DNA from: Hyaloperonospora brassicae | Lineage: Eukaryota > Oomycota > Peronosporomycetes > Peronosporales > Peronosporaceae | Assembly (NCBI GenBank): GCA_947650285.1 | Contig: CANTFL010001332.1 | Coordinates: 806,001-870,000 of the forward strand | Direction: 5' to 3' | Length of the DNA stretch: 64,000 bases | In this document: one piece after another, positions 4,892 through 28,276 of the stretch | Layout: the number at the start of each line of letters is the position of its first letter | Position numbering within the stretch: the first letter of the stretch is position 1 | Notes under the pieces: model-generated | Seen by the model: the letters and a program-made list of their open reading frames with translations, nothing else | The model's database searches: none | Told to the model about the DNA's origin: nothing | Made by a program: the position numbers and the translations under genes

Positions 4892-4892
4892 C

Positions 4893-8780: not shown

Positions 8781-8783
8781 GTA

Positions 8784-10279
8784 ATGACTCTGTCATCATC
8801 GGTCACTGACCTCATTCGTTCGACATATACCAAAGATGAACACTGTGTAGCGCTGCTGCGTGATTTAGGGAGCGAGGAGTTCAACGACTCAGACATTAAA
8901 TTGTCGGCACGTTTGAGTGCGAGGCTGCATCGATATTCTATCGACCAAGACCTGTTGTGCAATAGCACGGATGTAAGGGATACGCCTCGTATCGTTGTAC
9001 CTCATGATGAGGAGTTGAAGCATCTGATTCTCTATGAGGCACATGATACTGCGTTGAGTGGTCACCTCGGTAGTGAGAAGACCTACGGCTCAGTTAGTCA
9101 ATGCTATTGGTGGCCTAAACTCTACAAATGGGTAATCACATATGTTCGTATGTGTGAAACGTGTCAACGGGTGGAACCCTCAGCGCATGCGGCTGCACCG
9201 CTTGCTAGTCTACACATACCCTCTGGGTGTTGGGAGTCCATCAATATGGATTTCCTGTTCGGTTTGCCGAAAGATGCACAAGGCAATACGGGTATTGTGG
9301 TCTTTGTTAACCGTTGGAGCAGGATGGCTTACTTGATGGCTGTGCCAGATATCGAGGATGGTGAAGGTACAGCTACGCTGTTTATCGATCGAGTGTTTTG
9401 ACAACACGGTTTGCCTGTGGCAACTATCTCTGACCGAGACCCCCGCTTCACTGGGAAGTTTTGGAAACACACCTATAAGGTGCTCGGCACACGTTTGGAC
9501 ATGTCCACGGCGGATCATCCGCAGACCTTTGGTCAAACCGAGCGAGTCAATCGCGTTACCGGTGATATATTACGCAGTTTTTGCGTTAATATACCAAAAC
9601 GTTGGAGTTAGATGCTTCCTGTTGTTGAGTTTGCGTTCAACAACGCTGTTCACGCCTCTACAGGCTTTACCCCGTTCTACGTGAACGGTCTCACACACCC
9701 TTGCGTTCCGTAAACGCTACCACTACGTGGTTGAGGGCTTGTTGGAGGAGAGATGGCCAATCAGCTTGCTGATATCAGCCTTGCTATTGTTCACAAACAG
9801 GTAGGCGACTTTCTCGCAACGCGATTGAATGTGTTACGACACGTACGTGATGCACTGGCTGAGAGCCAAGACAAGTAGAAGGAACGAGCTGATGCTAGAG
9901 GCAGAGGTTGTATCAAACGTTTTGAGGTCTGAGACCAAGTTCTAATTAATGCGAAAAACCTACCTACAAATGCAGTGTCTGTCGTCTTCAAGACAGATTT
10001 CGTCCGCACTTCATCAGTCCATTCACGGTCGTCGCTCAGAAGGGACTTGCGTATATGTCCAACCTTTCGCGCAAACTGCGCACGCATCCGTTGTTCTACG
10101 TTGGCTTACTTAAGCCGTATCGGGAACCGTCCCATGTGAACTCGGAGGCACTTGATCCGCATAGGTTGGTCTTGCCGTCGGTTGCTGAATCCGTATCAGG
10201 AGGTCAAGCTGAGCCTCCATCAGGGCTTGGCGTAACTTTAACGCCTAAACACGAGCTTGACCCACCTCCAACACCTTAA
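8784..10279 (+). pseudogene. pol: Gypsy-A integrase (broken, left copy)
   Basis: Integrase inserts the cDNA into the chromosome. The first part (8784-9401) has the HHCC zinc domain (ending CETCQR) and the first catalytic Asp in NMDFLFGLP. After a stop at 9401 the frame resumes with SDRDPR (second Asp) and GQTERVNR (the Glu) at about 9430-9545. It breaks again near 9609 and 9712. The C-terminal module with LRTHPLFYVGLLKPY is readable at 10055-10279 and ends in a proline-rich linker. The D,D-35-E residues are all present but in different frames. Confidence 0.9.
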
Positions 10280-11439
10280 CAAGGGCTCGCATCGCGTCAA
10301 ACGCACTCTGGATCTGAACTAATGTCTCACGGATACCACTCAACTCGAGAAGCACCTTCTCACGCTCCTCCTTCGATATACCGACCACCCCCGACGCTGC
10401 TCTATTAGCAAGGGAACCGCCAGTTCCATGTGAAGCGACTCCTGAAACGACGTCGTCGTCAGGGTCAATACCAGTATCTGGTGAAGTGGCGAGGGTACCC
10501 GAAGTCGGAGAACGCGTGGGAGTTCAAGATACCCCTTCGACATGATTGCTCATACGCCGTGGATGTTTTTGAACATCGTGGCAAGGGTCGCCCTGCGACC
10601 GAGAACGCTCTTCACCAATAGTGGTGGGAGATAGCGGGTTTCTCCGAATCTTAGGGTCGGAACCCGCGGTTACCGGCGTAGCCAAAGCATCACGCGTACG
10701 TGTACGCAACTAGTCTCTGGCCTTAAGCTTGGCGTATTTGAACCGGAGCTTTCGTTCCAGACGAACGTCATCCACATCGGCGCTGGCCCGCAGCGAGGAA
10801 ACACTGATAAGATGCCGCTTGCGGTACATTCAACGGATGAACTGATTTTTCTCCTCCTCGGGCAGTTCGCCAGCGAACAACAAGATGGTCACGACCTGTA
10901 TCGGTCGAACCGAAACACCACGAGATAAGCTCTCAGGGTGCGCAAGGTACTGAACTTGCGTGGTCAAGAACGGCTCGAGATACCTCTCATGTAGAAACTT
11001 GCGGAACGCAATGTCTTCTGGATACGTAGTCTCTGGTGCAATTGCCCATGTTGCGAGGCTACGGCCTTCCGGTTGACGGAGATGTTGCTCCACGTCCGGT
11101 GTTGAAATCACGTAACCACTCTGGTTTTGAATAATGTCTGGGTATGCGCACGACGCCGAGCCCTCTCCTCTCGCTGAAGGATTAACTCCTGTTGCTCGTC
11201 GAGCGGGTTCGTGATGATGTTCTCATCTGCATCTGTTGTATGATGCTGCGCCACTGGCGCGGTCGTTTCACCACGTTTAACGAACGGATTCGGTGCTGTT
11301 AGAGGTCGAGCCTCAGATACAGCGGAGTGGGAGATATCCCGTCATCTCCAGGGGCACTGGTATCGCTACCATTGTCCACATCCTCATTAAAGTCGATATA
11401 GGGGATAAGATTCCGAGACTCGTTAGGTGGAGATGCCAT
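10110..11439 (-). pseudogene. Gypsy-A antisense ORF (left copy), unknown function
   Basis: On the minus strand an ATG at 11437-11439, about 106 bp inside the 3' LTR, opens a frame starting MASPPNESRN that is acidic and Ser/Thr-rich. After two frame changes it enters one frame that stays in register for 346 codons down to a TAA at about 10110, interrupted by only four stops. That part contains a compact, protein-like block (TPDVEQHLRQPEG, then FRKFLHERYLEPFL). It then has a basic segment and a predicted coiled-coil (SKEEREKVLLELSGIRETL). I do not recognise the family. Antisense ORFs in the same position are known in some plant Ty3/gypsy lineages (Tat/Ogre/Grande type). Any relationship is unproven. 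Confidence 0.6.
10418..10621 (+). pseudogene. Gypsy-A chromodomain (left copy)
   Basis: A short open frame reads RRRRQGQYQYLVKWRGYPK, the typical chromodomain core (YLVKWRGY), then SENAWE. Chromodomains at the end of integrase direct chromovirus insertion toward histone-marked chromatin. It lies in a separate frame from the integrase tail. The antisense reading frame of the element overlaps it completely. Confidence 0.8.
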
Positions 11440-11533
11440 GGTGTTTTGAGTTTGGCAACAGTGAGGTAAAGCTCACACACATCGACCTCTTCGAGGAAAG
11501 AATTCGATTGACGTTTCGTGGTGACGTCAGTCT

Positions 11534-11545
11534 GGTGGGGGAGGG
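11534..11545 (+). promoter_or_regulatory. Polypurine tract of Gypsy-A
   Basis: GGTGGGGGAGGG directly precedes the 3' LTR start TGTAAC. Ty3/gypsy elements use such a tract to prime plus-strand DNA. Position and composition fit. Confidence 0.75.
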
Positions 11546-12022
11546 TGTAACGGGGTTACACGTCGGCTGATAGTCGACAATAGGTGTGGTGCACACAAGA
11601 GATGGGGTCCCCTGTCAAGTGATATTGGAACACAGTAAGTGTATCAATTGTTGAAGACTGATGTCTATCAACCATTGATTGCGAGATCTTTTAAAAGATT
11701 TTATTTATGACAGGTTAATTACGCTGTTCTAAGGTGTTCTTTTAGGTTAAAAAAAGGAATAAAGTTCAGCTCACCTTTTGATCAGTAAGAGACACGTGCC
11801 CTACGGGGCGTCTTGATCGTAAGGACTAAGCAACGCCTGTGAAAGTAGCTTGTCCTTGAGCACTCTGTGCTGTAATTCATTTGAATCGTTTGGTCCCCTT
11901 TGGAACAGGGACCGTAAGCTCTTGAGCTTGTGTGACTCTCAGGAGTCGGGTTCGTAGAACCAAAGTTGCTCATTGAGCATTAAGTCTTCCTCTGACTTAA
12001 GGAGCCATGTAGATCCGCTACA
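11546..12022 (+). repeat. 3' LTR of Gypsy-A (left copy)
   Basis: This 477-bp LTR begins TGTAACGGGG and ends GCTACA. It is followed by TCTAC, the right-hand target duplication. It matches the 5' LTR over most of its length but has only one copy of the internal unit of about 50 bp. TG...CA ends are as expected for LTRs. Confidence 0.9.
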
Positions 12023-12260
12023 TCTACTTTGCTCGATCAGCGCAGCTCCAAGAAAGGATGTAGAACAGGTGCAATGTTTTTGCAAAGAAGTTGCGAAATA
12101 TCACGTTGCAGCTGTTAGCCGCATCCAGTGGCTCGACGATTTGAAGGAACGTGGTCATTCAAGTCAATTACTGAAGTACGCGTTGATGGAAGCTAATGGA
12201 GTAATTTTTGACAGTTTCGGGGATGCACTGCCTATTATAGCAAATGTAGAGAAAATATAA
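12023..12260 (+). CDS. Hypothetical open frame beside Gypsy-A (left copy)
   Basis: Outside the LTR this frame runs about 79 codons to a TAA at 12260 (for example FCKEVAKYHVAAVSRIQWL and LKYALMEANGVIFDSF). The composition looks protein-like and the mirror copy at 24797-25034 is identical. There is no ATG outside the LTR. Removing Gypsy-A extends the frame leftward only about 10 bp, to an in-frame stop. It could be an exon or a remnant. The opposite strand is also open here (see findings), so the coding strand is uncertain. Confidence 0.25.
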
Positions 12261-13622
12261 GACGTGCCAATCGGCCAAATTTTTGCTCTAATTGCCAGCG
12301 CTGTGATCCATCACACGCTCAGTATAATTAACTCTTCGTCTGTGCAGTGAGTCACACGGCTTGCACGCTCCCGTTGCAGCTCTATTGCAATCACATAGCG
12401 ATTCTCACTAAGGGATCTTTCCGTCGATGATATGTTACTCAATCTACGGCTACTCGTGGCAGCGGTGCGTACATCGACGTAATATCGATGTCACCTGCAC
12501 TGACATCACAAGGCGCTTAGTCCACAACCTTTATAAACCTCAAGTTCCTCGTGGAACGTAAATGTATATTCCTCGGGTAAGGATATAAAATGTTATGGTC
12601 TCAGTGACGCACTGTTGAGCTTCCTGACCTTGTCGGGACGAGGCGCTTGGGCCACCGGCGCAGATGGGACTTTATACACCAGCGGCGCCACCACTACGCT
12701 ATGAAGCTCTCGGCAAGCTATTGTCCAGGTCTCTGTGACTCAGGTGAGTAGAACCACCGACTCAACACGCTTCGTGCCTTTCAAGCCACTTACTTGGAAT
12801 GCAGCTGCCGCGCTGATGCACTTTGCCTGTCTTTCGAAGCAGAGAAAAGGCGTTGGAACACTGAGTGTGAAGCTTAACAAGACAGTTGTAGTCCCAACAC
12901 CTGCGGTCAAGGACTTTTCTTCGGCAGCGTTTCCATTATTGCCGCTTTTCGATATTTGATGAGATCGTAGTGGACCGCGGCAATTAAGGGATGTCGCTTG
13001 TTCTTATCGGTGCATTATGGCTATGAGATACTATTTCTAGCGAGTCGTCGCTGCACTTAGCTAAAGACAAACTGGATGAGTACTGCTCTTCGTCTATTGA
13101 CCATGTCAGTCACGCTATCACAAGATATTGCAACATGCATGACTGCAAGTGTTGCATGTCATTTGAAGCCTATCGGAAGCTACTCATCTAATGAACAACA
13201 CTTCGCTGCCGCAATCTAGTGCGCAGGTGAATTCTGTATACTAGTTAGTGACATTTCGTTGCAGCTAAACTTTTGTATATGAAGTCGTGGCGTTGTTTAT
13301 GTGAAGTGTCAAGATCTGCCTATCCTTTGCAACTACATCATACATGTACTACGGTAGATCAACGTGCTCCGAGAAACGAATATGTGTAGCTTCATGCACC
13401 TGCACTACGCATTGAGTGGCAATCGTCGCACCTACGCGCAGTACTGACGTCTGGCGCCCGAATGGGACCTCCCAGCCAGACGTTCCGGCACTCATTTGAT
13501 GATCCGCTCAGCAAACGTTTCTATTCTACCAACGGCAGGGGGTCAACACAAACGGAAGCTGATGTCTTCTTGGTGATTGACTTGACTGTTGTTTCAGTAT
13601 TTCATTCTTGATTTTGCATATC
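12261..13622. other. Unassigned arm sequence between Gypsy-A and Gypsy-B
   Basis: No recognisable gene. One 74-codon frame at 12735-12959 (+) starts at GTG, lacks an ATG and matches nothing I know. At 13447-13483 a 9-bp hairpin (acgtctggc / gccagacgt) encloses TGGCGCCCGA, which resembles a retroelement primer-binding site. The region might be the remains of another LTR element. The mirror copy is at 23435-24796. Confidence 0.4.
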
Positions 13623-13627
13623 AAGTT
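13623..13627. repeat. Target-site duplication AAGTT, left side of Gypsy-B
   Basis: AAGTT precedes the 5' LTR and recurs at 21618-21622 after the 3' LTR. The right arm has a single copy (AACTT at 23430-23434 on the opposite strand) in otherwise continuous sequence. Confidence 0.95.
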
Positions 13628-14020
13628 TGTAACGGGGCAGCCCGTTACATGGAAGTGTCACTTTAAAAGAAAGTGACAACAAAGAATATTAAGTGAATAT
13701 TCTTTGAACAATATCACCGATAATGGTGATATTGGTGAAGCGACCAAAGGGTCTGCTCATTGGTTGATATCTTGATGATATCAACCCACCAATCGCCGCA
13801 GGACGCGCGCAATGAGTGGTGACGAGACGTCACCATACACTCAGTTATATTAACATAATTAAGTCAGGTTAAACAAAGAGACAGTAGCAAAAGACTTAAT
13901 TATATTAATACAACAGTTTTACTTTTCCCTTATCCTACGCTTCCTCGTTTGCCTCGTGTACGTCTGTCGGGGCACTCAAAACCCTTGCGTTAAGTTCACG
14001 CAAGGGTGTGCCCCGTTACA
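13628..14020 (+). repeat. 5' LTR of Gypsy-B
   Basis: This 393-bp LTR starts TGTAACGGGG and ends CCCCGTTACA, so its own termini form an inverted repeat. It contains a run of hairpins: 13656-13664 with 13670-13678, 13681-13690 with 13696-13705, 13709-13718 with 13725-13734, and 13762-13771 with 13777-13786. Stems are 9-10 bp and loops 5-6 nt. No clear TATA box could be assigned. Confidence 0.95.
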
Positions 14021-14022
14021 CC

Positions 14023-14032
14023 TGGTAGCACT
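14023..14032 (+). promoter_or_regulatory. Putative primer-binding site of Gypsy-B
   Basis: TGGTAGCACT begins three bases after the 5' LTR. The first seven bases fit the 3' end of an initiator-methionine tRNA of the type that primes Ty1. Gypsy-A has a similar site in the same place. Confidence 0.55.
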
Positions 14033-14064
14033 TTGTAGTCCTTCCAAGGACCACAGCATCCAAC

Positions 14065-15219
14065 ATGAACATGTTGGATGATGAAGAGACCTTTCACGCC
14101 ACGCGTGAAGGGTTTACCCATTTGAGTGACATCGAATGGAGTGCGGTAGAACGAATGAGTTCTACCGTAGGCGAGTTCGCCATTAGCGCCATGTTGGAGT
14201 CTCTAGACAGAGACCAACAACATGCCGCTATAGCCAAGTTCATCCAAAGTGAACTTGTCGCCGAAAGGGAGAAAGTAGCCTTGCTTCACCAGCAAGGCTC
14301 TCAACAGGCCGAGCAGTTGAGAGAACTCGGTGCTCAACAGACAGAGCTGTTGAGACAGCAGCAATTCCATGCTGCTGTGGGCGGGACGGCACATGCGCGT
14401 CGTCCCGAGGTCATGAAGGTTGACATCTCCAAGTACAGTGGAGTCCCGGAGGACTCCCTGTTACTGTGGTTTGTCGAACTCGACAGAGCCTTAAGGGCTC
14501 GTCGCGTCGAAGATGAGCAAATGAAACTCACATTTGCTCAAACCCACTTGGCAGGACGTGCCAAAACTTGGTCCCTGGGACTCGAGAGTAGCGACCCAAA
14601 TGTGTTTAGGTCGCTAGATGACTTCAAGTCCCGGCTCAGACAAACGTTTGAGCCGCCACGAGCTGAGTTCAGGGCTCGTTCTGAGCTCCTGAAACTCAAG
14701 CAGGGTAAGCGTGATGTGCACGCTTACGCACAACATATACGACTCCTCGCGAGTAGTATAACTGCTAACCCAGTTCATGAACACACGTTGATTACGGTGT
14801 TCATGCAAGGGCTCGCAGAAGGGCCCGTCAGGAGCCACCTGTTCCGCCTTGAGCTGAATACGCTTGAAGAAGCGATATCAGCCGCGGAACAGGAAGACTT
14901 TAGCATGAGACAGGCTCATGCTAGCTCAAACTCTTACCGTCCACCGAGACGACAAGAGATCGGAGGTCCAGAACCAATGGACCTCTGCTATGTTGAGAGC
15001 GAGAGACCTCGCTCTTCAAACAACAAGCGATTGCAGAGGTGCAATCGCTGTCAGAAGTTAGGGCACTACGCATACGAGTGTAGTGCTCCACGCCCAGTAC
15101 CAAACAGTACTGAGCGAAATGGACGACCATTCGCCAAGAAGGGCAATGGGCGTGGGTCCAGCGCTGTTGCGAAGCCGCAACAGCGAGACGGACCATCAAA
15201 AAATGGTCGGGGTCAGTAG
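14065..15219 (+). CDS. gag: Gypsy-B Gag, intact
   Basis: This 384-residue Gag starts at an ATG 45 bp after the 5' LTR. Residues about 45-105 are Gln/Glu-rich and probably coiled-coil (LVAEREKVALLHQQG). Residues about 115-290 form the retrotransposon capsid region (for example HLAGRAKTW and EFRARSELLKLKQG). A single zinc knuckle lies at residues 326-339 (CNRCQKLGHYAYEC, CX2CX4HX4C), followed by a basic tail that should bind RNA. The frame ends at a TAG (15217-15219) that lies inside a hairpin, 13 nt after a -1 slippery heptamer, so a fraction of ribosomes should continue into the protease. This is the best-preserved gene in the window. Confidence 0.95.
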   Translation: MNMLDDEETFHATREGFTHLSDIEWSAVERMSSTVGEFAISAMLESLDRDQQHAAIAKFIQSELVAEREKVALLHQQGSQQAEQLRELGAQQTELLRQQQFHAAVGGTAHARRPEVMKVDISKYSGVPEDSLLLWFVELDRALRARRVEDEQMKLTFAQTHLAGRAKTWSLGLESSDPNVFRSLDDFKSRLRQTFEPPRAEFRARSELLKLKQGKRDVHAYAQHIRLLASSITANPVHEHTLITVFMQGLAEGPVRSHLFRLELNTLEEAISAAEQEDFSMRQAHASSNSYRPPRRQEIGGPEPMDLCYVESERPRSSNNKRLQRCNRCQKLGHYAYECSAPRPVPNSTERNGRPFAKKGNGRGSSAVAKPQQRDGPSKNGRGQ

Positions 15220-15237
15220 GGGCGGAGCGCCCTACTG
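15198..15237 (+). promoter_or_regulatory. Predicted -1 ribosomal frameshift signal at the gag-protease junction
   Basis: Heptamer A AAA AAT at 15198-15204 is in the gag frame (tca aaa aat). It is followed by a 9-nt spacer and a perfect 8-bp stem, CAGTAGGG (15214-15221) with CCCTACTG (15230-15237), enclosing an 8-nt loop. The protease frame is exactly -1 relative to gag and is open from 15204 onward. Layout matches known -1 signals of retroviruses and retroelements. Activity is inferred. Confidence 0.75.
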
Positions 15238-16184
15238 ATCCAGCAACCTCAAGAGAATTTGCAAATCTCTTGACGAAAGTTGCTCCAGATACACAATCAT
15301 TGTGTGTCTCTGCACCTGGTGATGACGTTTCGCTCATCACCTTGAAGTTGGAAGCGACAAATGATTTGTCGCTTCGTGCCCTAGTAGACTGTGGGGCGTC
15401 GAACAACTTTGTTCGTCGCCAGTCACTAGAGGGTCGTAGGCTCAAGTTCGTTGAGCGCGACATTCCCCTCACGAGGATGACGGTGCGCCTTGCAACAGGC
15501 GCATCGATTACCGTTGAGAAACGTGTAGTCGGAATCCACTACACGTTAGAGGGCGAACAGTACGATAATGACTTCATCGTACTAGATCTGGATGACAAAT
15601 TTGATGTCATCCTGGGATTACCTTGGCTCAGAAGGTACGAGCCAAGGGTGAGCTGGCAGCATCGATCCGTGAAGATGCCTGCCGCTTGTTCATCAGATGG
15701 CCATCTGATGAACATCTTGGAGCGTCCACAAGCGTGTGGATGTTCTGCGAGTGAGTGCGATGGCCTCACTTGCGGTACGGTCGTTAGCACGACTGCACAA
15801 GATCACAGTGTAGTTGATCACTACACTGTGGAGCAAGCTCCCGGCGGCTGTACAAAAGTACAGGCTGCGCCGAAGGTCCACCACTCGAATAAGTCGAGTG
15901 GACCGGGACATGGATGCATGCCTAGCGGGCAGCATCTTAGAAGAAAGAAACCTGTTGCCCCCAAGGGGCAACATGGAAATCCTAGGTCGACTGGAGAGTC
16001 GACCGTAGAGGATCGGTTCCTGACTGTGGTTGCACAGCCACAGTCAGAAGACGTCGAGGGAATAAGTCCCCACGTACTTGAGGAAGGAATTCCTCAAGAG
16101 TCACTTGCTGAAGGATTAGGCCTTCAGCAACCTGTGGAAAGAAGTCCCCAGGAAGTGAACCGAGACGTTGAACGTCTTGGTTGA
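15204..16184 (+). CDS. Gypsy-B aspartic protease, probably made by -1 frameshift from gag
   Basis: The frame has no ATG near its start and is open back to the slippery site, so I place its start at the frameshift point. The active site is ALVDCGASNNFVR (DCGA in place of DSGA, at about 15385-15425). The matching C-terminal motif is DVILGLPWL, about 70 codons later. The last 170 or so codons form a poorly conserved Ser/Gly/Gln-rich linker (hairpin-dense, for example a 26-bp perfect palindrome at 15688-15713). The stop at 16182-16184 overlaps the RT frame, which is open from 16159 in the +1 register. Confidence 0.85.
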   Translation, partial: WSGSVGAERPTDPATSREFANLLTKVAPDTQSLCVSAPGDDVSLITLKLEATNDLSLRALVDCGASNNFVRRQSLEGRRLKFVERDIPLTRMTVRLATGASITVEKRVVGIHYTLEGEQYDNDFIVLDLDDKFDVILGLPWLRRYEPRVSWQHRSVKMPAACSSDGHLMNILERPQACGCSASECDGLTCGTVVSTTAQDHSVVDHYTVEQAPGGCTKVQAAPKVHHSNKSSGPGHGCMPSGQHLRRKKPVAPKGQHGNPRSTGESTVEDRFLTVVAQPQSEDVEGISPHVLEEGIPQESLAEGLGLQQPVERSPQEVNRDVERLG

Positions 16185-18504
16185 TGACGGATCAAGCGTA
16201 GGCGCTTATACGCTTGATCTGATTGTGCCTCCGAAGTTAACTTCGGGGATAACTCAGTTGCCAACGCTAGAACCGAAACGGTTCTTGCGTGATCTGCGTA
16301 GTGGCAAAGTCAAGCAGATCTGCATACTCGTCAAAGAGGATGAGTATGTGGCCGATATTCGGTCGGCGACAGTATTTGCTGAGAACGAACGGGTTCTCAG
16401 CAGCTCATCGATGGACGAAAGTGTCCTCGATGAGAAGACTCGGATTGAGCGATACACGTCACAATCCTGGGAGTCACTTCAGGCAAATCCTTTGTATAAG
16501 GATTTGATCGAATTCAGGGATGTGTTCCCTGAATCCGTACCTTGCGAGTTGCCTAAGGACAAAGGCACTCGACACGAGATCGAGCTCAGAACGGGCTCGA
16601 AGTACTGTGTCATGAAGCAGTGGCCACTGCCTCGTGAACAAGTACTAGCGATCGACAAGTTCTTTGCCGATCGCTTAGCAGCGGGCCATGTGAGGGAATC
16701 AACATCCCCTTACAGCTCTCCGACCTTCTGTGTGCGAAAGGCCACAGGAGGATGGCGGATAGTGCACGCGTTCAACAAATTGAATGCTGCAACGGTACCG
16801 GCTCAGACGCCGATACCGAGGAAGGACGTAATCATAGATGGTATGTCAAAGAGTACCATCTTTTCGTCCATGGATCTGATGGATGGATTCTATCAGATCC
16901 TCATGCGTGAACGGGACATCCCGTACACGGCAGTGAGCACCCCCAGCGGGATGCTGTGGGAGTGGCTAGTGATGCCACAGGGGCTGAGTAATGCCCCTGC
17001 AACATTCAACAGATGTGTTACAAATCTGTTGAGACCGGTGCGAGACTTTGCACCGAGTTACTTCGACGATGTGTTCGTCCATAGCCGGGCTATGGACGGA
17101 AAGACGGACGTTGAAGTTCACAGAACTCACGTTCGTCAGGTTCTTCAACTTATGCGCAAGAATAAGTTGTATGCCAACCTCAAGAAGTGTATATTCGCGG
17201 CTAGCGAAATACCACTTCTTGGGTGCATCGTGGGTAAACACGGCGTACGCCCTGATCCCGAAAAGATCAAGGCGATCACCGACTGGCCAGTGCCAGTCGA
17301 TGTCAAGGGACTAAGGAAGTTCCTTGGACTAGCGGCGTACTTGCACAAGTACTCTCGCAACTACGCCGAAATGACGGTACATCTTTCTTGGTTACTCAAG
17401 AAAAATGTCAAGTGGTCATGGAACGCTGAGTGCCAACGTTCCTTTGAAGGTATCAAGCGGAGCTTGATGCAGTCGCCGATCTTGGCGATTGCAGATCAGG
17501 ACAGACCATTTCATGTGGTCTGTGACGCCAGCGATTTTGCGATCGGCTGTGCGTTAATGCAATTTGATGCAGATGGCGCGGAGCGCGTCATCTGTTATCA
17601 GTCGCGTCAGCTGCAAGCAGCTGAGCGCAATTATCCAGTGCATGACAAGGAACTCCTTGCCATGAAGTACGCACTGGCTAAGTTTCGCGTCTATCTCCTC
17701 GGAGATAGACCGTTTGTTGTCTATACGGACCATGCGTCACTACGCACGGCCGTAAACAGCCCACACCTCTCGCAAAGAATGGCGAGGTGGCTGTCTTTCT
17801 TCGCGGAGTACAACTTCTCCGTGGAGTATAAACCAGGACGACTCAATGTCGTCGCTGATGCGCTTTCGCGCCGGCCCGATTTCGAGCCGGACGCACAATC
17901 CAACAGTGAGGATAAGCCCACTGTTGCGACACTGACAGTCAGTGTTCCGTCGTCAAGCTTACTTGACGACGTACGAAAGGCATACGCAGAAGATAAGGAT
18001 CTTCTGCGATTAATGGATCATCTGGTGCATCCATCCAGTAAATCATTGAAGGATTTACCGGCTTTGTACCGATCCTCATCGGATCGGTACACAACGCGTA
18101 ACGGACTGTTATATTATACAGCCGTTGACGGCGACACGCCTCGTGTCGTCGTCCCCACTCATAATGATTTGCGATTACGCATCATGTATGAGTGTCACGA
18201 TGCCCCAACAGGTGGCCATCGTGGGAGAGAAAAGACTTACCTCACGGTAAGTCGTGACTTTTACTGGCCCCGCCAGTATCAGTTTGTACGCAAGTACATA
18301 CGTGCTTGCGAGGTTTGTCAACGGGTGAAGCCTAGTCCTTCATCCCGTGCACCATTACAGCCTCTACCGGTCCCGGCAGAGTGCTGGCAGTCCGTTTCAA
18401 TGGACTTCGTCTTCGGGTTTCCCGAAGACGCTCACAAGAATAATGGTATTCTTGTGTTCGTTGATCGGTTCAGCAAGATGGTCCATCTTGCTGCAGTGCC
18501 CTGA
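16159..18504 (+). CDS. pol: Gypsy-B reverse transcriptase / RNase H and start of integrase
   Basis: Counting residues from the TTG at 16168 (778 codons), the RT motifs are SPYSSPTFCV (about 180-189), FSSMDLMDGFYQ with the first Asp at 236, and YFDD at 298-301. RNase H residues are Asp453 (VVCDASDF), Glu495 (DKELLAMKY), Asp521 (YTDHASL) and Asp564 (VADALSRRP). The integrase zinc domain uses His667, His674, Cys704 and Cys707 (CEVCQR), and the first catalytic Asp is in SMDFVFGF (736). No natural ATG begins it, and it sits +1 to the protease, so either a second recoding event or an indel joins them. It ends at 18504, where one extra C in the codon after AAV throws integrase out of frame. Confidence 0.93.
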   Translation, partial: TETLNVLVDDGSSVGAYTLDLIVPPKLTSGITQLPTLEPKRFLRDLRSGKVKQICILVKEDEYVADIRSATVFAENERVLSSSSMDESVLDEKTRIERYTSQSWESLQANPLYKDLIEFRDVFPESVPCELPKDKGTRHEIELRTGSKYCVMKQWPLPREQVLAIDKFFADRLAAGHVRESTSPYSSPTFCVRKATGGWRIVHAFNKLNAATVPAQTPIPRKDVIIDGMSKSTIFSSMDLMDGFYQILMRERDIPYTAVSTPSGMLWEWLVMPQGLSNAPATFNRCVTNLLRPVRDFAPSYFDDVFVHSRAMDGKTDVEVHRTHVRQVLQLMRKNKLYANLKKCIFAASEIPLLGCIVGKHGVRPDPEKIKAITDWPVPVDVKGLRKFLGLAAYLHKYSRNYAEMTVHLSWLLKKNVKWSWNAECQRSFEGIKRSLMQSPILAIADQDRPFHVVCDASDFAIGCALMQFDADGAERVICYQSRQLQAAERNYPVHDKELLAMKYALAKFRVYLLGDRPFVVYTDHASLRTAVNSPHLSQRMARWLSFFAEYNFSVEYKPGRLNVVADALSRRPDFEPDAQSNSEDKPTVATLTVSVPSSSLLDDVRKAYAEDKDLLRLMDHLVHPSSKSLKDLPALYRSSSDRYTTRNGLLYYTAVDGDTPRVVVPTHNDLRLRIMYECHDAPTGGHRGREKTYLTVSRDFYWPRQYQFVRKYIRACEVCQRVKPSPSSRAPLQPLPVPAECWQSVSMDFVFGFPEDAHKNNGILVFVDRFSKMVHLAAVP

Positions 18505-19510
18505 GTCCATCACGGCACCCGGTTGTGCTCGTGTCTTTCTGGACACGGTCTTTAGACTCCACGGGTTACCCCGTGAACTCGTATCCGACCGTGACCCTCG
18601 GTTCACGGCGGAATTTTGGCAAACCGTGTTCCGTTCTCTCGGAACACGATTGAAGATGTCCACTTCTGACCATCCCGAAACAGATGGTCAGACGGAACGT
18701 GCGAACCGTGTCCTCGAAGAGATCCTTCGAGGATATGTCCACTCGTTTCCGAGTTGGAGCGAATTCCTACCCATGGTGGAATTCGCCATCAATAATTCGG
18801 TGCATGCTTCCACACAGCACACACCGTTTTACGTGAATGGCCTACGCCATCCACGTGTGCCCACCCTTCTAGAGTGTGACTCTTGGATAAGGGGAGGGAG
18901 GGACTCGCTCGAGCAAAAACCGTTTTGGCTCTTGCTCATCACGTGTCGACGCTAACGTCGTCACGTATGATGCCGATGTCGATCAAGTCGACATCGATGA
19001 AGAAGATCACCTCAGTAATAGCGGCGACGCTATTACTGACTCGGATGATGATGACGATGCTGGTATATTCAGCATCGTCAACGATTATGCCAGCGAGGAA
19101 AAAGACAACCTCGCTGAAGAAGAGAACAATCTCTTAGCAGTGCGCACGAAGCGCACTGAAATACAAAACAACGAGTCAGCAGAGAACTTCCTGCTGACTC
19201 GAGAAGCGGTAGTCCGTTTCGTTCAGGACTCCATCGCAAATGCGGTGGACCGCCAGAAACGGAACGCAGACAAGAATGGAAGAGCAAATGTTCTTTCATT
19301 TAAGGTTAACGACCTAGTACCACTGTTTACGGTAAACTTACCTGGACATGCAGTCACTAGTGTTGGGAGTAGTAAACTACTGCCGAAGTAAATTGGGCCA
19401 TTTCGAGTGTTGCATCGCAAGGGCAACGCATACACACTCGAATTGCCACGTAAGATGCGCACGCATCCTACATTTTACGTGGGGAGGCTCAGGCCGTACT
19501 GTCAGTACGA
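18505..19510 (+). pseudogene. pol: Gypsy-B integrase, remainder (broken)
   Basis: After the frameshift near 18500 the integrase core continues in another frame with SDRDPRFTAEFW (second Asp) and GQTERANRVLEEIL (catalytic Glu) up to about 18890. A second frame change leads into a strongly acidic segment (about 18950-19130, with runs of DDDDD), then the C-terminal module (about 19140-19500). A stop at 19389-19391 cuts that module within LLPK/IGPF. These lesions should abolish integration by this copy unless it is helped in trans. Confidence 0.9.
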
Positions 19511-21096
19511 GCCTTCTTCTTCCGATGAAGATATCCCCCACGTTCAAGAACATCCATCAAGTTCTTGCGTTCGCGCTCCAGACGATCCGTCTGGTCGCGC
19601 AGATATGATACCTCGGAGCTCAACCGAGTTATCTCCCCGCGAGCTGTCGCCAGCTCGCCGAATAAGGAGCGGACATCCCGCTCGACCTGAAGCTGCGCTG
19701 TGGCATAATCGGCGCTATCCCTCGCCCGATCAGCCTCGCGATCCTTGCGGTTCTTCCGCACGGTATCAGTCAAAGCGTAGCGCCGGTCGCGTTCGTGCTT
19801 CAAGTCATCGCGCAATTCATCGATTGCGCGATCCATCTCGTAAGGGTCGACATTGTGGACCTGGGGCTCTGGAGGAGGTCTTTCCTCCTCCACCACATCC
19901 TTTGGTGGATTTCTCACGGTGATCAACGCTTTCTAGTGGAGCGGATCTTGAATCACCGTGAAGATTCAGGATCAAGGACGAGCTACCTCGTCCAGTGGCG
20001 GGGGTATCCACCCTCTTGGAACAGCTGGGAGCCCCGCTCGCAGCTGTTGATGGACGTTGAAGGTCTCGTCCGCCAGTATGACGAGACTCACCCGATTGGT
20101 CCGAGGGACCATCGGTAAACACTCGCTTTTGGCGCTTGTAGACGGATTGCAAGTTTGCAATCGCGTCACGCATCTCAGCCGAGATATGTGCCCTTCCCCA
20201 GGGCGAACTCGAGGGAATACACATCCCTATGTGCACGCTGCGAGTTGTCAACACAACTCGCACAAGGGTCTCCCCAAGTGAGGCATGGAATGCCGGCCTC
20301 ACTTGATAAACAATGCAACCGGTACCTGGCACCGGTTGGCGTTCGCTTTTCGAACCTGAGGCGTATCGCCTCAAGCTTCTTAAGCCACCCTTCTCGTCCA
20401 AACTTCTTTACGTTTTGGACGAACGCGTTCCACACAGCCAAAAGCGAGGCCTTGTCACGCTTTTGGTTGCTGTTGTACCATCGATGTCTAAGAAAGATAT
20501 CGAGATAAAAATCTTCTCCAGCGCGAAAGTTGCTCTCGCTGGCAATCAAGCCGTGAAGCTCAGTCGCATCGAATAAGAATAATTTGATGGTGTTGGCTTG
20601 TCTCGTAAGACAAGCTATTGATGAGCCGTTCAGGCAAACGCCACAGCTTCAGCTCATCACGCTTCACAGTGGTACCCTTGTCGGTCCCACGGTTGTCAAT
20701 ATGACGATGGGTCGCACCATCGTCAAGTTGCTCGTGCGAAGAAGCACGAGCCGATTGCGGTGATGAGCAAACATATTCATCATTAGATTCTTCATCACTG
20801 CCGAACAGACTGTGTTGCAAATCACATGTCCGTTCGTTCGGCAGTGGTCTTGGCGAATACTGAGGCGTCGCCGGAGATTGAGACGCCTCTGATGCATTGC
20901 CCGAGTCAGACACGTCTGACTCGCCAGAATAGATGACCTCAATGTCAGGGTCATCATGCGCACGCGGTGCTGTACAGCGTGTACCTGCAGCACCTCTTGC
21001 TGCAGGCGAAGAACGAGGAGCAGACGACGGATCGTCTGCCGAAGAAGCTGGCACAGGCAAAGACTCTGTGTGCCTTGAGTCACCCCGCATAGACAT
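19489..21096 (-). pseudogene. Gypsy-B antisense ORF region, unknown function
   Basis: On the minus strand an ATG at 21096, about 130 bp inside the 3' LTR, opens a 178-codon frame (MSMRGDSRH...) that is acidic and Ser/Pro-rich. After a frame change near 20575 it continues as a compact block at 20175-20573 (FRAGEDFYLDIFLRHRW and LLAVWNAFVQNVKKFG). Further back, 19489-19926 encodes a strongly charged probable coiled-coil (ERDVRSLFGELATARGEI). Position, polarity and acidic-start, globular-middle, coiled-coil-end order match the antisense frame of Gypsy-A, although the sequences differ. The last part overlaps sense chromodomain and linker codons. Function unknown. Confidence 0.5.
19900..20118 (+). 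pseudogene. Gypsy-B chromodomain
   Basis: The frame reads DQRFLVERILNHRE, then TSYLVQWRGYPPSWNSWEP, a classic chromodomain, and ends at 20118. It belongs to the C-terminus of integrase but is in a different register from the preceding linker (stop of that frame at 19922), apparently because of a single extra T near 19911. The linker before it (about 19500-19900) is Pro/Ser/Arg-rich. The domain would target integration to modified histones. Confidence 0.85.
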
Positions 21097-21212
21097 GTTA
21101 GCTATGCGAGGTCAGGTTGAGTTATGAACGGAACTGACACAACAAGGGGTCCCTCTCTCAATGGCGCCCAACGAGTGGCCGCCATATTTTCTATAGTCAC
21201 ACAGTGACTATC

Positions 21213-21223
21213 AGTTAAGGGGG
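21213..21223 (+). promoter_or_regulatory. Polypurine tract of Gypsy-B
   Basis: AGTTAAGGGGG lies three bases before the 3' LTR. The purine run is short but in the expected position for plus-strand priming. Confidence 0.6.
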
Positions 21224-21226
21224 TAA

Positions 21227-21617
21227 TGTAACGGGGCAGCCCGTTACATGGAAGTGTCACTTTAAAAGAAAGTGACAACAAAAAATATTAAGTGAATATT
21301 CTTTGAACAATATTACCGATAATGGTGATATTGGTGAAGCGACCAAAGGGTCTGCTCATTGGTTGATATCTTGAAGATATCAACCCACCAATCGCCGCAG
21401 GACGCGCGCAATGAGTGGTCACGAAACGTCACTATACACTCAGTTATATTAACATAATTAAGTCAGGTTAAACAAAGAGACAGTAGCAAAAGACTTAATT
21501 ATATTAATAAAACAGTTTTACTTTTCCCTAATCTACGCTTCCTCGTTTGCCTCGTGTACGTCTGTCGGGGCACTCAAAACCTTGCGTTAAGTTCACGCAA
21601 GGGTGTGCCCCGTTACA
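21227..21617 (+). repeat. 3' LTR of Gypsy-B
   Basis: This 391-bp LTR has the same TGTAAC...GTTACA ends as the 5' copy. Differences by eye are about 8 substitutions and 2 single-base deletions, close to 2%. It is followed by the target duplication AAGTT at 21618-21622. Confidence 0.95.
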
Positions 21618-21622
21618 AAGTT

Positions 21623-22171
21623 GCTTGGTATCAAGAATGCAACTGAGAGCTGATTATGTAAATTGCAGCACCCTCTAGTGACTGTGCACACGGATTTGAC
21701 AGCGACGCCTGTCCTACATTCCAATAGCTCATTCATAGCTTACTGATAAGTCTAAACGGTAAATTACGATCATGGTAAGCGTACTTGGCACACCTAGCAT
21801 TACCCTGCGTCAGTCGATGCTCTGTTTATCCGGATGCATTTGATATCGTACAGCAAAGAGAAGTACTGCCACCATTTCGTCCAGATTGCGTACCGAACAC
21901 AGCAGCTGCAGTTGTATAGAGTCTACACGGCAGTCATACGTATGATTGACGCAGCATCTCATACATTGATGCTCCGAGCCACGGACGTGCCATTGGAGGT
22001 GATGCTGATTTAATCCGATGGACCTTGTTGTTTATTTGCGAAAGTCAATTGTAGCCTTCAAATTTGTCAAGTCTCAAAAATGTACTGGGACGTGTATAAT
22101 TCATAAAAGAAGGGAAACGTTGACCACCCCCTAGGTTTTCGTTCACCAGCCCCCACCCCTATATGTTACCG
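21623..22171. other. Innermost part of the left arm
   Basis: This is the continuation of the arm after Gypsy-B, pairing with 22881-23429. No gene is visible. Near the inner edge a C-rich patch (CCACCCCCTAGG and CAGCCCCCACCCC at about 22122-22160) marks where pairing ends. Confidence 0.5.
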
Positions 22172-22880
22172 ATCTATACTTGATATAAATCATCTGTTTG
22201 GTAAATTTGAGAAAAGAACACCGGTCTCAGCGATAATTTATAATCTCATATTCAAATGATAAAATACTTAATCTAAACAATTTATACATGATTATAAGTC
22301 GGTAATGTTTGGTAATTTATTATTCAGCTGCTTCATTTAACCAATCCATTACTCGGTGAAATGATATTTAAATACGAGCGATTCTGGAACAGGTTGGGCT
22401 TGTAGCGATTATCCTGCATGGGTACTGTGACGAAGGCATCCAACAACACTATATCCGAAAGTAATTTCAAATTAGCCGCAGAGGTCTATCAAGAGGTAAA
22501 TCACTCGTCGTAATACCTTATATATTAACTAACCAGAACAACGTGTAATTTGATGATGGTAGAGGCTCCATGTGGGTTCTGACAAGGGCCATACTGATCT
22601 TTAATCGGTAACGTATTTCCGTATAGGCAGTCTGGATCCGCTAGGCACCACAATATAGGGCTTGCGCCAGCGTATCGTATGTAGTTACAGCAGGTGGTAG
22701 CAGAGCCATATGAGAACTACTGGCTGGTATTTGAGAGCTAAGATAAAATTTTCATCCGTTGAAAAAAAGTGTATGGGATAAAGGAAAAGTGACAATTATA
22801 GTGGTGGGGTTAGCTGCCAGTGTTAAGCAATATATGATAGTTTAAATGACCAATCAAACACATGGAAAGCTTACATATTA
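22172..22880. other. Unique spacer between the palindrome arms
   Basis: This 709-bp AT-rich segment is where the arms stop pairing. Flanking bases on the two sides (for example GATCTATACT at 22171-22180) no longer match. It contains no reading frame worth naming and no recognisable mobile element. It is the only part of the inverted repeat that is not duplicated. Confidence 0.75.
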
Positions 22881-23429
22881 CGGTAATATATAAGGGTGGG
22901 GGCTGGAGAACGAAAACCTAGGGGGTGGTCAACGTTTCCCTACTTTTATGAATTATATTCGTCCCAATACATTTTTGAGACTTGACATATTTGAAGGCTA
23001 CAATTGACTTTCGCAAATAAACAACAAGGTCCATCGGATTAAATCAGCATCGCCTCCAATGGCACGTCCGTGGCTCGGAGCATTAATGTATGAGATGCTG
23101 CGTCAATCATACGTATGACTGCCGTGTAGACTCTCTACAACTGCAGCTGCTGTGTTCGGTACGCAATCTGGACGAAATGGTGGCAGTACTTCTCTTTGCT
23201 GTACGATATCAAATGCATCCGGATAAACAGAGCATCGACTGACGCAGGGTAATGCTAGGTGTGCCAAGTACGCTTACCATGATCGTAATTTACCGTTTAG
23301 ACTTATCAGTAAGCTATGAATGAGCTATTGGAATGTAGGACAGGCGTCGCTGTCAAATCCGTGTGCACAGTCACTAGAGGGTGCTGCAATTTACATAATC
23401 AGCTCTCAGTTGCATTCTTGATGCCAAGC
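22881..23429. other. Innermost part of the right arm
   Basis: Mirror of 21623-22171 with a few base differences. One 71-codon frame (23316-23531, +) runs across the empty Gypsy-B site and is not recognisable. I do not call it a gene. Confidence 0.5.
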
Positions 23430-23434
23430 AACTT
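23430..23434. other. Empty Gypsy-B target site in the right arm
   Basis: A single AACTT sits in uninterrupted sequence where the left arm has AAGTT duplicated around Gypsy-B. It shows the pre-integration state and fixes the element boundaries to the base. Confidence 0.95.
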
Positions 23435-24796
23435 GATATGCAAAATCAAGAATGAAATACTGAAACAACAGTCAAGTCAATCACCAAGAAGACATCAGCT
23501 TCCGTTTGTGTTGACCCCCTGCCGTTGGTAGAATAGAAACGTTTGCTGAGCGGATCATCAAATGAGTGCCGGAACGTCTGGCTGGGAGGTCCCATTCGGG
23601 CGCCAGACGTCAGTACTGCGCGTAGGTGCGACGATTGCCACTCAATGCGTAGTGCAGGTGCATGAAGCTACACATATTCGTTTCTCGGAGCACGTTGATC
23701 TACCGTAGTACATGTATGATGTAGTTGCAAAGGATAGGCAGATCTTGACACTTCACATAAACAACGCCACGACTTCATATACAAAAGTTTAGCTGCAACG
23801 AAATGTCACTAACTAGTATACAGAATTCACCTGCGCACTAGATTGCGGCAGCGAAGTGTTGTTCATTAGATGAGTAGCTTCCGATAGGCTTCAAATGACA
23901 TGCAACACTTGCAGTCATGCATGTTGCAATATCTTGTGATAGCGTGACTGACATGGTCAATAGACGAAGAGCAGTACTCATCCAGTTTGTCTTTAGCTAA
24001 GTGCAGCGACGACTCGCTAGAAATAGTATCTCATAGCCATAATGCACCGATAAGAACAAGCGACATCCCTTAATTGCCGCGGTCCACTACGATCTCATCA
24101 AATATCGAAAAGCGGCAATAATGGAAACGCTGCCGAAGAAAAGTCCTTGACCGCAGGTGTTGGGACTACAACTGTCTTGTTAAGCTTCACACTCAGTGTT
24201 CCAACGCCTTTTCTCTGCTTCGAAAGACAGGCAAAGTGCATCAGCGCGGCAGCTGCATTCCAAGTAAGTGGCTTGAAAGGCACGAAGCGTGTTGAGTCGG
24301 TGGTTCTACTCACCTGAGTCACAGAGACCTGGACAATAGCTTGCCGAGAGCTTCATAGCGTAGTGGTGGCGCCGCTGGTGTATAAAGTCCCATCTGCGCC
24401 GGTGGCCCAAGCGCCTCGTCCCGACAAGGTCAGGAAGCTCAACAGTGCGTCACTGAGACCATAACATTTTATATCCTTACCCGAGGAATATACATTTACG
24501 TTCCACGAGGAACTTGAGGTTTATAAAGGTTGTGGACTAAGCGCCTTGTGATGTCAGTGCAGGTGACATCGATATTACGTCGATGTACGCACCGCTGCCA
24601 CGAGTAGCCGTAGATTGAGTAACATATCATCGACGGAAAGATCCCTTAGTGAGAATCGCTATGCGATTGCAATAGAGCTGCAACGGGAGCGTGCAAGCCG
24701 TGTGACTCACTGCACAGACGAAGAGTTAATTATACTGAGCGTGTGATGGATCACAGCGCTGGCAATTAGAGCAAAAATTTGGCCGATTGGCACGTC
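23435..24796. other. Unassigned arm sequence (right copy)
   Basis: Mirror of 12261-13622. It has the same 74-codon frame on the minus strand (24098-24322, no ATG) and the same hairpin around a primer-binding-site-like motif (23574-23610). No gene recognised. Confidence 0.4.
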
Positions 24797-25034: not shown

Positions 25035-25511
25035 TGTAGCGGATCTACATGGCTCCTTAAGTCAGAGGAAGACTTAATGCTCAATGAGCAACTTTGGTTC
25101 TACGAACCCGACTCCTGAGAGTCACACAAGCTCAAGAGCTTACGGTCCCTGTTCCAAAGGGGACCAAACGATTCAAATGAATTACAGCACAGAGTGCTCA
25201 AGGACAAGCTACTTTCACAGGCGTTGCTTAGTCCTTACGATCAAGACGCCCCGTAGGGCACGTGTCTCTTACTGATCAAAAGGTGAGCTGAACTTTATTC
25301 CTTTTTTTAACCTAAAAGAACACCTTAGAACAGCGTAATTAACCTGTCATAAATAAAATCTTTTAAAAGATCTCGCAATCAATGGTTGATAGACATCAGT
25401 CTTCAACAATTGATACACTTACTGTGTTCCAATATCACTTGACAGGGGACCCCATCTCTTGTGTGCACCACACCTATTGTCGACTATCAGCCGACGTGTA
25501 ACCCCGTTACA
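25035..25511 (-). repeat. 3' LTR of Gypsy-A (right copy)
   Basis: Reverse complement of 11546-12022. It ends CCGTTACA at 25511 and is followed by the C-rich complement of the polypurine tract at 25512-25523. Confidence 0.9.
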
Positions 25512-25617
25512 CCCTCCCCCACCAGACTGACGTCACCACGAAACGTCAATCGAATTCTTTCCTCGAAGAGGTCGATGTGTGTGAGCTTTACCTCACTGTT
25601 GCCAAACTCAAAACACC

Positions 25618-28273: not shown

Positions 28274-28276
28274 TAC

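Follow-up and report, generated by a model that had tools for sequence, protein, structure and literature searches.

Three described systems come close to the element reported here. Chromodomain elements of the Ty3/Gypsy group (Metaviridae) resemble it in their LTRs, gene order, chromodomain and 5-bp target duplication. SHAPE probing of Ty3 genomic RNA places about 20% of its sequence in a well-folded core (PMC11381356). Positive-strand RNA viruses with genome-scale ordered RNA structure (GORS) carry stem-loops throughout their genomes, coding regions included, with less diversity at paired sites; the portion of PMC7642675 drawn on here gives a mean folding excess of about 15% for the SARS-CoV-2 genome and 23.4% as the highest recorded mean for a viral genome. 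Quasi-palindrome template switching, described in yeast coding DNA (PMC8604942) and in RNA genes (PMC8794818), acts at perfect inverted repeats with short spacers, and inversion of the loop or spacer is a recognised footprint of it (PMC8604942); in the portions of these reports cited here it appears as single-site events.

The element, Gypsy-B (13628–21617, 7990 nt), lies in a window that is the whole 64,000-nt stretch of Hyaloperonospora brassicae DNA analysed. Unlike its Ty3/Gypsy relatives, untiled examples of which occur in the same window, it is tiled with Watson-Crick (WC) hairpins throughout. In contrast to GORS, it is a retroelement rather than an RNA virus, and its pairings covary exactly and are nearly strand-symmetric. 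Compared with reported template-switch mutation, it is an 8-kb element filled with hairpins, and its stems show reduced variation, which mutation alone does not predict. Literature searches for a retrotransposon tiled with such hairpins found none; a first-pass annotation of this DNA had likewise known of no such description for an LTR retrotransposon. The tiled element as a whole and its hairpins are given below without strand.

Organization and relatives of Gypsy-B

Judged from sequence, Gypsy-B and its sister lineage are chromodomain Ty3/Gypsy LTR retrotransposons. The 391-bp 5' LTR of Gypsy-B (13628–14018, plus strand) starts with TGTAACGGGGCA, ends with TGCCCCGTTACA and is 97.4% identical to the 3' LTR (21227–21617, plus strand), and a 5-bp target duplication, AAGTT, flanks the element at either end. 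Pfam domains follow the Ty3/Gypsy order of gag, then protease-RT-RNase H-integrase, the integrase core match being below cut-off. On the plus strand we identified a gag frame of 384 aa (14065–15219; PF03732, PF19259), in which a zinc knuckle match (PF13917) falls under its Pfam cut-off; an aspartyl protease frame (15270–16184; PF08284); and a frame carrying reverse transcriptase (RT), RNase H and the integrase zinc domain (16168–18504; PF00078, PF17917, PF17921), which in the window copy stops at 18504. Integrase core sequence lies in a different frame (18347–18955, plus strand; PF00665, E 0.00027, under the curated cut-off), and the chromodomain in a separate frame of this copy (19795–20118, plus strand; PF00385, matched over 19795–20115 at E 9.5e-15). 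The pol of the window copy is broken.

Two open reading frames (ORFs) lie on the minus strand. The first, of 178 aa (20560–21096), is stop-free in 16 of the 20 further B copies and in three of six sister copies, has a modest third-position excess and matches a predicted protein in Hyaloperonospora brassicae at 78% identity. The second, of 145 aa (19489–19926), is stop-free in 17 of the 20 further copies and overlaps sense pol sequence; that it has a function is doubtful. The 3' part of Gypsy-B may thus possibly include coding sequence on the antisense strand.

Gag matches numbered 107 among the matches listed, and gag relatives in Peronospora matthiolae are 73% identical. Peptide-pattern scans of viral contigs (with pol and with a 13-sequence gag alignment) and of genome contigs (with the gag alignment) each run with a few short patterns, confirmed no relative. 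Two loci chosen on gag scores as possibly distant, L077 and L078, both proved to be B copies (95%). A non-autonomous sister lineage with hairpins but no genes was also rejected, as five sister gags differ from B most at third codon positions; all five are individually decayed.

Density and distribution of hairpins

Perfect stems were defined as having at least 8 bp and a loop of 0–8 nt. There are 77 in Gypsy-B versus 14 in the other 56,010 nt of the window, with none in the flanks (12000–13627 and 21618–23618) and three in Gypsy-A (4–12 kb). Dinucleotide shuffles of Gypsy-B (n=100) contained a mean of 1.14 such stems and at most four, and under synonymous-codon shuffling (n=500) the observed and shuffled counts were 12 versus 0.34 in gag, 12 versus 0.29 in the protease frame and 19 versus 0.51 in pol. 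The mean RNA folding z, calculated on 150-nt pieces with 20 shuffles each, was −5.2 for the sense and −5.0 for the antisense strand of Gypsy-B, compared with −0.9 and −1.2 for Gypsy-A and −0.7 and −0.6 for the related B2. The first-pass annotation had proposed to weigh hairpin density and folding energy against shuffles, Gypsy-A and flanking DNA; the density lies far above the shuffled values, neither Gypsy-A nor the flanks approach it, and Gypsy-A, which that annotation had described as lacking the pattern at the same codons, is untiled. Because both the shuffles and the untiled neighbours differ from Gypsy-B, composition is excluded as the cause.

Stem lengths run from 8 to 12 bp, with one of 14 and a sharp drop above 11–12 bp, and the loop-size spectrum peaks at 4–5 nt and reaches background past about 13 nt. 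At the family level, where a hairpin was defined by at least nine WC pairs and at most two non-WC pairs, we counted about 139; stems and loops together, they occupy about 47% of Gypsy-B. A typical hairpin has about 9–12 bp and a loop of 3–8 nt; such hairpins occur in the LTRs, the genes and the non-coding 3' part, and more than one third of the coding bases lie inside stems. The element had been described as tiled end to end. The pattern is real and more marked than first described, with 77 stems spread through LTRs and coding regions, but coverage stays near 47%, centre-to-centre gaps between family-level hairpins reach 214 nt, and the RT core is sparse, with zero perfect stems of at least 8 bp in 16534–17076. 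Stems are barely richer in GC than the remainder (967 of 1845 stem sites versus 2636 of 5126), and an Rfam search for known structured RNAs gave just two miRNA-like matches, both sub-threshold.

The array begins at the outermost edge of the 5' LTR with a 9-bp hairpin with a 4-nt loop (13628–13649), followed by three in succession within 13656–13734, of 9, 11 and 10 bp (13656–13678, 13680–13706 and 13709–13734); four consecutive LTR hairpins had indeed been reported. The longest stem is a perfect palindrome of 14 bp (15687–15714), and an 11-bp hairpin (17076–17098) directly follows the sparse RT-core stretch. Further downstream are a 10-bp hairpin at 18433–18456, one of 11 bp with a 1-nt loop at 18471–18493 and one of 11 bp with an 8-nt loop at 19172–19201. 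All nine stems itemized in the first-pass annotation are perfect where it placed them, but several run 1 bp longer on each arm; the hairpin at 18065–18091, for instance, has 11 bp, of which the inner 10 had been given, and that at 19012–19039 has 12.

The other family members tell the same story: all 20 further copies examined are tiled, with 44–96 perfect stems each, as is a diverged sister lineage, and the flanks of one sister copy (C553) contain no perfect stems. The array is thus family-wide and ends at the element edges where tested, in the window element and the C553 sister copy. The related B2 and Gypsy-A in the same window are not hairpin-tiled. We considered B2 as a hidden tiled family and rejected it, since its six family-level stems (versus 3.6 in column-shuffled alignments) are far under B; a second rule gave a slight excess, five versus 1.7. 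Among double-changed cells at B stem positions, 203 of 386 are WC in seven related B2 copies and 18 of 45 in Gypsy-A, where our own rough estimate of the expectation is 37.5%. Given that the B2 fraction exceeds both this estimate and the Gypsy-A value, a weak ancestral start is possible.

Conservation of pairing

In a comparison of 1211 pairs, the sister lineage retains WC pairing at 1036, in 35 of them with both bases replaced to give a different WC pair; permutation (n=2000) gave a mean of 6.8 double changes and a maximum of 17. Individual hairpins illustrate the compensatory change for which the first-pass annotation had suggested looking. In a 9-bp gag hairpin (14901–14923), each of the five sister copies compared carries compensatory changes at two neighbouring pairs; a 12-bp hairpin with a 1-nt loop (15351–15375) shows such a change in the sister lineage, and an 11-bp hairpin (15804–15830) in two of the three relatives aligned there. 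Within the hairpin at 19012–19039, the compensatory pair 19015/19036 separates the window copy from all 20 other copies compared.

Variation within the family agrees with this picture. The ratio of shared to singleton variants is lower at stem sites than between hairpins (pooled odds ratio 0.49, chi2 30), and third-codon divergence from the sister is 0.17–0.25 in stems, 0.28–0.41 between hairpins and 0.41–0.43 in loops. The codon phase that leaves just one flexible pair in three is avoided (5 of 42 and 13 of 78). The array therefore coevolves in pairs, its stems are poor in variants common to several copies, and in coding parts the hairpins are built largely via synonymous sites, as had been proposed. 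An artefact of assembly, composition or chance is very improbable, and nothing was found in its favour: the same hairpins occur in copies on separate contigs and in the diverged sister, codon-phase bias and covariation are both present, and the shuffles and untiled neighbours exclude composition.

Relative to the sister, stem conservation is clear only at the third codon position and at the first position of pol codons. It does not reach significance in the LTR, the 3' non-coding part, the first two gag positions or pol position 2. At the first gag position, a smaller share of loop sites (5 of 31) than of stem sites (27 of 130) differs from the sister, and the shared-to-singleton ratio in the LTR is 0.36 in loops, below 0.47 in stems. 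Because the stems were selected on the very copies analysed, stem conservation is overestimated to some degree. Transversions (41 of 94) are depleted in stems no more strongly than transitions (117 of 332).

Strand symmetry

Folding excess is nearly the same on the two strands of Gypsy-B, at 45.5% sense and 44.8% antisense, and ranges from 24 to 69% across 22 fragments of 350 nt (mean 45.5%). The high genome-wide folding excess of GORS is therefore present, and at about 45% lies above the viral 23.4%, the shuffling routines being different. Two further GORS traits are absent: a structure specific to the sense RNA, recognizable by tolerance of G-U and stronger folding of the sense strand, and, as far as the cited portion of PMC7642675 describes it, poor conservation of pairings between relatives.

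Tolerance of G-U relative to A-C was compared in several ways. Non-WC pairs at the family level comprise 41 GU and 35 AC, shared stem variants 25 GU-type and 28 AC-type, one-sided changes in the sister 38 GU and 60 AC, and the strict stem set 14 GU versus 18 AC; per copy, GU and AC stand at 30.5 versus 30.1 in stems of at least 10 pairs and 19.7 versus 19.6 in those of at least 11. A lean towards GU appears among stems of at least nine pairs (40.2 per copy holding GU versus 33.0 holding AC), singleton states (79 versus 48, and 93 versus 71 in a second count), one-mismatch stems of the window copy (14 versus 10) and outer neighbour pairs (20 versus 14). Overall, G-U has at most a slight advantage over A-C, which indicates that the constraint acts much alike on both strands.

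These counts bear directly on the idea that, as in GORS viruses, selection acts only on the sense genomic RNA and serves its packaging, its stability or its concealment from recognition. Element-wide structure, a folding excess this extreme, the depletion of shared variants where bases pair, the use of synonymous sites and the weak GU lean in several counts all accord with it. However, that lean is small or absent in the longer stems, family pairs, strict set, shared variants and sister divergence, folding of the antisense strand is equally extreme, and Gypsy-B pairings are conserved with exact covariation, whereas those of coronavirus GORS are described as poorly conserved in the cited part of PMC7642675. 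With G-U retained barely if at all better than A-C, selection on sense RNA by itself is a poor fit; we disfavour it as the main explanation and judge it improbable. Of the RNA-structure selection that the first-pass annotation had offered as one cause, the pairing constraint is supported by covariation, shared-variant depletion and codon phase, but selection confined to sense RNA is poorly supported.

Maintenance of the array

The other cause on offer was quasi-palindrome correction. As a mutational drive, nascent cDNA would snap back at imperfect inverted repeats and copy its own arm by template switching in reverse transcription; hairpins would build up and stay perfect while being functionless, and protein selection would merely filter the permitted places. 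Two hairpin loops are exactly inverted, the 4-nt loop of a 10-bp hairpin (15162–15185) in the L078 copy and the 3-nt loop of a 10-bp integrase hairpin (18408–18430) in the C364 copy (loci L007 and L034). They represent 2 of 50 loop variants with at least three differences, versus 1 of 468 in the control, and we conclude that hairpin template switching occurs in Gypsy-B. The near indifference to G-U and A-C and the lack of GC enrichment also fit copying of complementarity as such, and loops of 4–5 nt suit intrastrand fold-back. On the other hand, neutral copying should, we reason, leave stems as variable as elsewhere, with compensated doubles, whereas shared variants in stems are reduced by roughly half and doubles are scarce (five doubly changed WC states are found in more than one copy). 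The arms are symmetric, with 59 versus 54 shared variants. Only 10 of 391 clusters of at least three changes have a reverse-complement partner of at least 6 nt (longest 8 nt), a count that has no shuffled control and to which single-base correction is invisible, and the inversions affect two hairpins among about 1600 hairpin-by-locus comparisons, in which some copies are counted in two overlapping loci. Template switching seems to happen too seldom to keep up the array alone, and we consider a purely mutational explanation unlikely, if well short of negligible. The interpretation in the first-pass annotation is thus partly supported.

Selection could instead act on DNA, where single-stranded cDNA might form hairpins, or the integrated copy cruciforms, that would affect integration, chromatin or cDNA protection. 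Near strand symmetry, the poor tolerance of every mismatch class and the extension of the tiling to the LTR ends would all be expected. Against this, we know of no requirement for such structure across an entire element, and arms of 8–12 bp are short for cruciform extrusion. Selection on DNA is a slim prospect.

The best explanation, held tentatively at somewhat under an even chance, is that selection favours Watson-Crick pairing of each strand with itself, with avoidance of duplexes as a proposed benefit. In its favour stand the density and family-wide spread of the stems, the paired divergence from the sister, the depletion of shared variants, the third-codon and codon-phase patterns, the near strand symmetry, the possible antisense coding in the 3' part and the sharp upper limit on stem length. 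Both strands would be kept self-folded because local folding would compete with pairing between sense and antisense RNA, or with cDNA mispairing, and so with the long duplexes on which small-RNA silencing would feed. At about one helical turn, the stems themselves fall short of the length that Dicer requires. Rare hairpin template switching may have provided perfect stems that selection then retained. Several observations weigh against selection for self-pairing of both strands: antisense ORFs are confined to the 3' part, and antisense RNA is presumed; the GC content of stems, hardly raised, gives no hint of selection for stability; even if both strands matter, a G-U pair should be less costly than any other mismatch; transversions are no more depleted in stems than transitions; and the avoidance of double-stranded RNA is a step that we infer. 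A fuller version, in which the array is a strand-symmetric hairpin armour, both strands self-folding so that long duplexes form poorly, silencing finds little substrate and the proteins are encoded around the constraint, is a doubtful proposal on present evidence.

Much of Gypsy-B serves two codes together, protein and hairpin. Selection for RNA folding and mutational upkeep of hairpins through template switching are usually confounded; the near equality of the two strands of Gypsy-B sets them apart, and its large copy number makes the question of selection versus mutation measurable. If the array blocks duplexes or silencing, it would represent a cis-acting escape of a transposon from small-RNA defence; were the armour proposal true, evasion of silencing would be written in the codons of the element, without a suppressor protein.

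Hairpin density in Gypsy-B

Judged by its genes, Gypsy-B (13628-21617) is an ordinary chromodomain Gypsy element. It carries gag, protease, RT, RNase H, integrase zinc domain and chromodomain sequences between 391-bp LTRs that are 97.4% mutually identical, with AAGTT flanking both ends, and its gag has relatives in Peronospora matthiolae (73% identical). The pol of the window copy is broken: the main frame stops at 18504, and integrase core sequence runs on in a different frame. The element sits in the spacer of a large inverted duplication (1-12022 and 25035-37000; position x pairs with about 37057 - x), both arms of which hold copies of the related element Gypsy-A (4374-11853 and 25135-32614) and old pieces of another relative, B2.

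The first-pass annotation described Gypsy-B as tiled with short perfect hairpins, and all nine stems that it listed proved perfect. Counting perfect stems (Watson-Crick throughout) of at least 8 bp with loops of 0-8 nt, we found 77 in the 7990 nt of Gypsy-B versus 14 in the other 56,010 nt of the window. Dinucleotide shuffles of the element (n=100) gave a mean of 1.14 and a maximum of 4. In synonymous-codon shuffles (n=500), gag, the protease frame and pol yielded 0.34, 0.29 and 0.51 stems, compared with 12, 12 and 19 observed. Under a relaxed rule (at least 9 Watson-Crick and at most 2 other pairs), the window copy contains 15.6 hairpins per kb versus 1.1 per kb in other window DNA; five mononucleotide shuffles gave 3.0 in total. 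Stems measure 8-12 bp, plus a single one of 14 bp, and loop lengths peak at 4-5 nt, the excess over background being gone near 13 nt. About 47% of the element lies within hairpins defined across B copies (family-level hairpins). The annotation knew of no such LTR retrotransposon, and searches of the open-access literature likewise brought up none with a comparable array; this array is a new property.

Tiling across related elements

We searched the host assembly (100.56 Mb, 898 contigs) and scored 40 B copies, including that in the window, with a 1-kb pol piece (92% to 100% identity). Twenty of the other 39, chiefly top-scoring and each retrieved as two pieces, were analyzed in detail; all 20 are tiled, with 44-96 perfect stems each, extending the observation to other family members as the annotation had proposed. 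All but about 5 of the 107 gag matches listed lack a stop and many score identically, suggesting that a large family expanded recently in a burst. A sister lineage, detected via its LTR and about 71-85% identical to B across most pieces, is also tiled (1.8-7.0 perfect stems per kb at twelve loci, flanks counted in); its copy C553 has zero perfect stems beyond the element borders. B2, about 65-74% identical to B across most alignable pieces, has 0-0.5 perfect stems per kb (seven loci), and its family-level stems in 4 kb number 6 versus 3.6 after column shuffling, or 5 versus 1.7 under a second rule. Gypsy-A, in which the annotation had seen no such hairpins at the same codons, lacks tiling by both stem count and folding. 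Because the B copies and the sister lineage are tiled whereas B2 and Gypsy-A are not, tiling is a property of the lineage, most simply one acquired or much strengthened after the split between B and B2. An LTR-like stretch at 61121-61405 (reverse strand), 73-76% identical to the B LTR, retains Watson-Crick pairing at 44 of 55 aligned LTR stem pairs, yet has zero perfect stems of at least 8 bp.

Maintenance of stem pairing

Among 1211 stem pairs comparable between B and the sister lineage, the middle part of which is represented by a single sister copy, 1001 are unchanged, 35 show double changes to another Watson-Crick pair and 16 show double changes without pairing; one-sided changes comprise 38 GU, 60 AC and 61 other. 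The compensatory changes that the annotation had suggested seeking are present; permutation (n=2000) gave a mean of 6.8 and a maximum of 17 double Watson-Crick changes.

We also compared variants shared by at least three B copies, assumed to have passed through retrotransposition, with singletons. Compared with singletons, shared variants are underrepresented in stems (pooled odds ratio 0.49, chi2 30, from rounded rates). Per site, stems hold fewer of them than either loops or between-hairpin sites in six of six strata, the latter difference not being significant at codon position 2 (p 0.20) or in the 'other' stratum (p 0.053); in the LTR, the shared/singleton ratio is lower in loops (0.36) than in stems (0.47). 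Third-codon divergence from the sister lineage is 0.17-0.25 in stems, 0.28-0.41 between hairpins and 0.41-0.43 in loops. Outside third positions, stem conservation is weak: stems do not differ significantly from between-hairpin sites in the LTR, 3' non-coding, 'other', gag position 1, gag position 2 and pol position 2 classes, and at gag position 1 loops diverge less (5/31) than stems (27/130). The codon phase that gives a flexible base to only one pair in three is avoided (5 of 42 perfect and 13 of 78 family-level hairpins), indicating that synonymous choice is in use, as the annotation had supposed. Across these counts, which draw on related copies aligned by local BLAST, with stems defined on the copies counted, stem pairing in Gypsy-B is maintained.

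Strand symmetry

In a sense RNA, a G-U pair is tolerable and an A-C mismatch is not. Family-level hairpins contain 1400 Watson-Crick pairs and 41 GU, 35 AC and 68 other pairs; the strict set (at most one non-Watson-Crick pair) has 14 GU and 18 AC. Shared stem variants are 25 GU-type and 28 AC-type (109 and 106 outside stems), and stems per copy holding GU versus AC number 30.5 versus 30.1 at 10 or more pairs and 19.7 versus 19.6 at 11 or more. A lean to GU is seen in singleton states in stems (79 versus 48 AC) and in stems of at least 9 pairs (40.2 versus 33.0 per copy). A second singleton count gave 93 versus 71 (256 versus 239 outside stems), one-mismatch stems in the window copy 14 versus 10, and neighbouring pairs 20 versus 14 (outer) and 14 versus 11 (inner), not significant. 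These counts leave room for a weak GU preference and are hard to reconcile with a strong one. Two-step compensatory changes in rRNA are reported to have affected G-U or U-G pairs in 78.5% of cases (PMC8794818). At some stems (e.g., 13816-13836 and 21415-21435), the next pair outward is a conserved G-T, where sense-RNA effects might show. Pair 14058/14079 is A-T in B; four of five sister copies have A-C there and, by eye, copy C95 has G-T, as though both intermediate types survived.

Folding excess over shuffled sequence is 45.5% (sense) and 44.8% (antisense) in Gypsy-B, versus the 9.5/12.1% of Gypsy-A, the annotation's intended comparison, and the 7.4/4.2% of B2. The highest viral genome mean that we found in PMC7642675, by another shuffling routine, is 23.4%, with one region above 50%. 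GC is hardly higher in stems (967/1845) than elsewhere (2636/5126). It is complementarity itself that has been preserved, to much the same degree on either strand. The nearest known system, the genome-scale ordered RNA structure of RNA viruses, differs in two marks, sense-strand specificity and, as in coronaviruses, poor conservation of pairings.

A 178-aa antisense ORF (20560-21096, reverse strand) stays open in 16 of the 20 B copies and in three of six sister copies. It has no Pfam domain, and differs at 45/178 third positions versus 31/178 and 32/178 at the others. Its 35 protein matches (one Hyaloperonospora brassicae protein, 78% identical, and 34 from ENA) are all predicted and may be conserved element DNA read from the opposite strand; for this reason, antisense RNA from Gypsy-B is rated only plausible.

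Template switching and proposed selection

The annotation offered two causes, template switching and selection for RNA structure. Switching does occur: the loops of hairpins 15162-15185 (locus L078) and 18408-18430 (copy C364) are exactly inverted, the footprint of DNA synthesis switching arms, at 2 of 50 loop variants with at least three differences versus 1 of 468 controls. As sole maintainer of the array, however, it is not favoured. These are two hairpins among about 1600 hairpin-by-locus comparisons (some copies double-counted via overlapping loci), the arms show no asymmetry (59 versus 54 variants), only 10 of 391 clustered changes have a reverse-complement partner (a count without shuffled control), and by our reasoning neutral copying would not halve stem variation. 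These points favour selection for self-pairing, which would keep perfect stems supplied by template switching. Near symmetry of the strands implies that the selected molecule would be both RNA strands, or DNA. Folding of Gypsy-B might prevent long sense-antisense duplexes and hence silencing, a role that we regard as rather unlikely.
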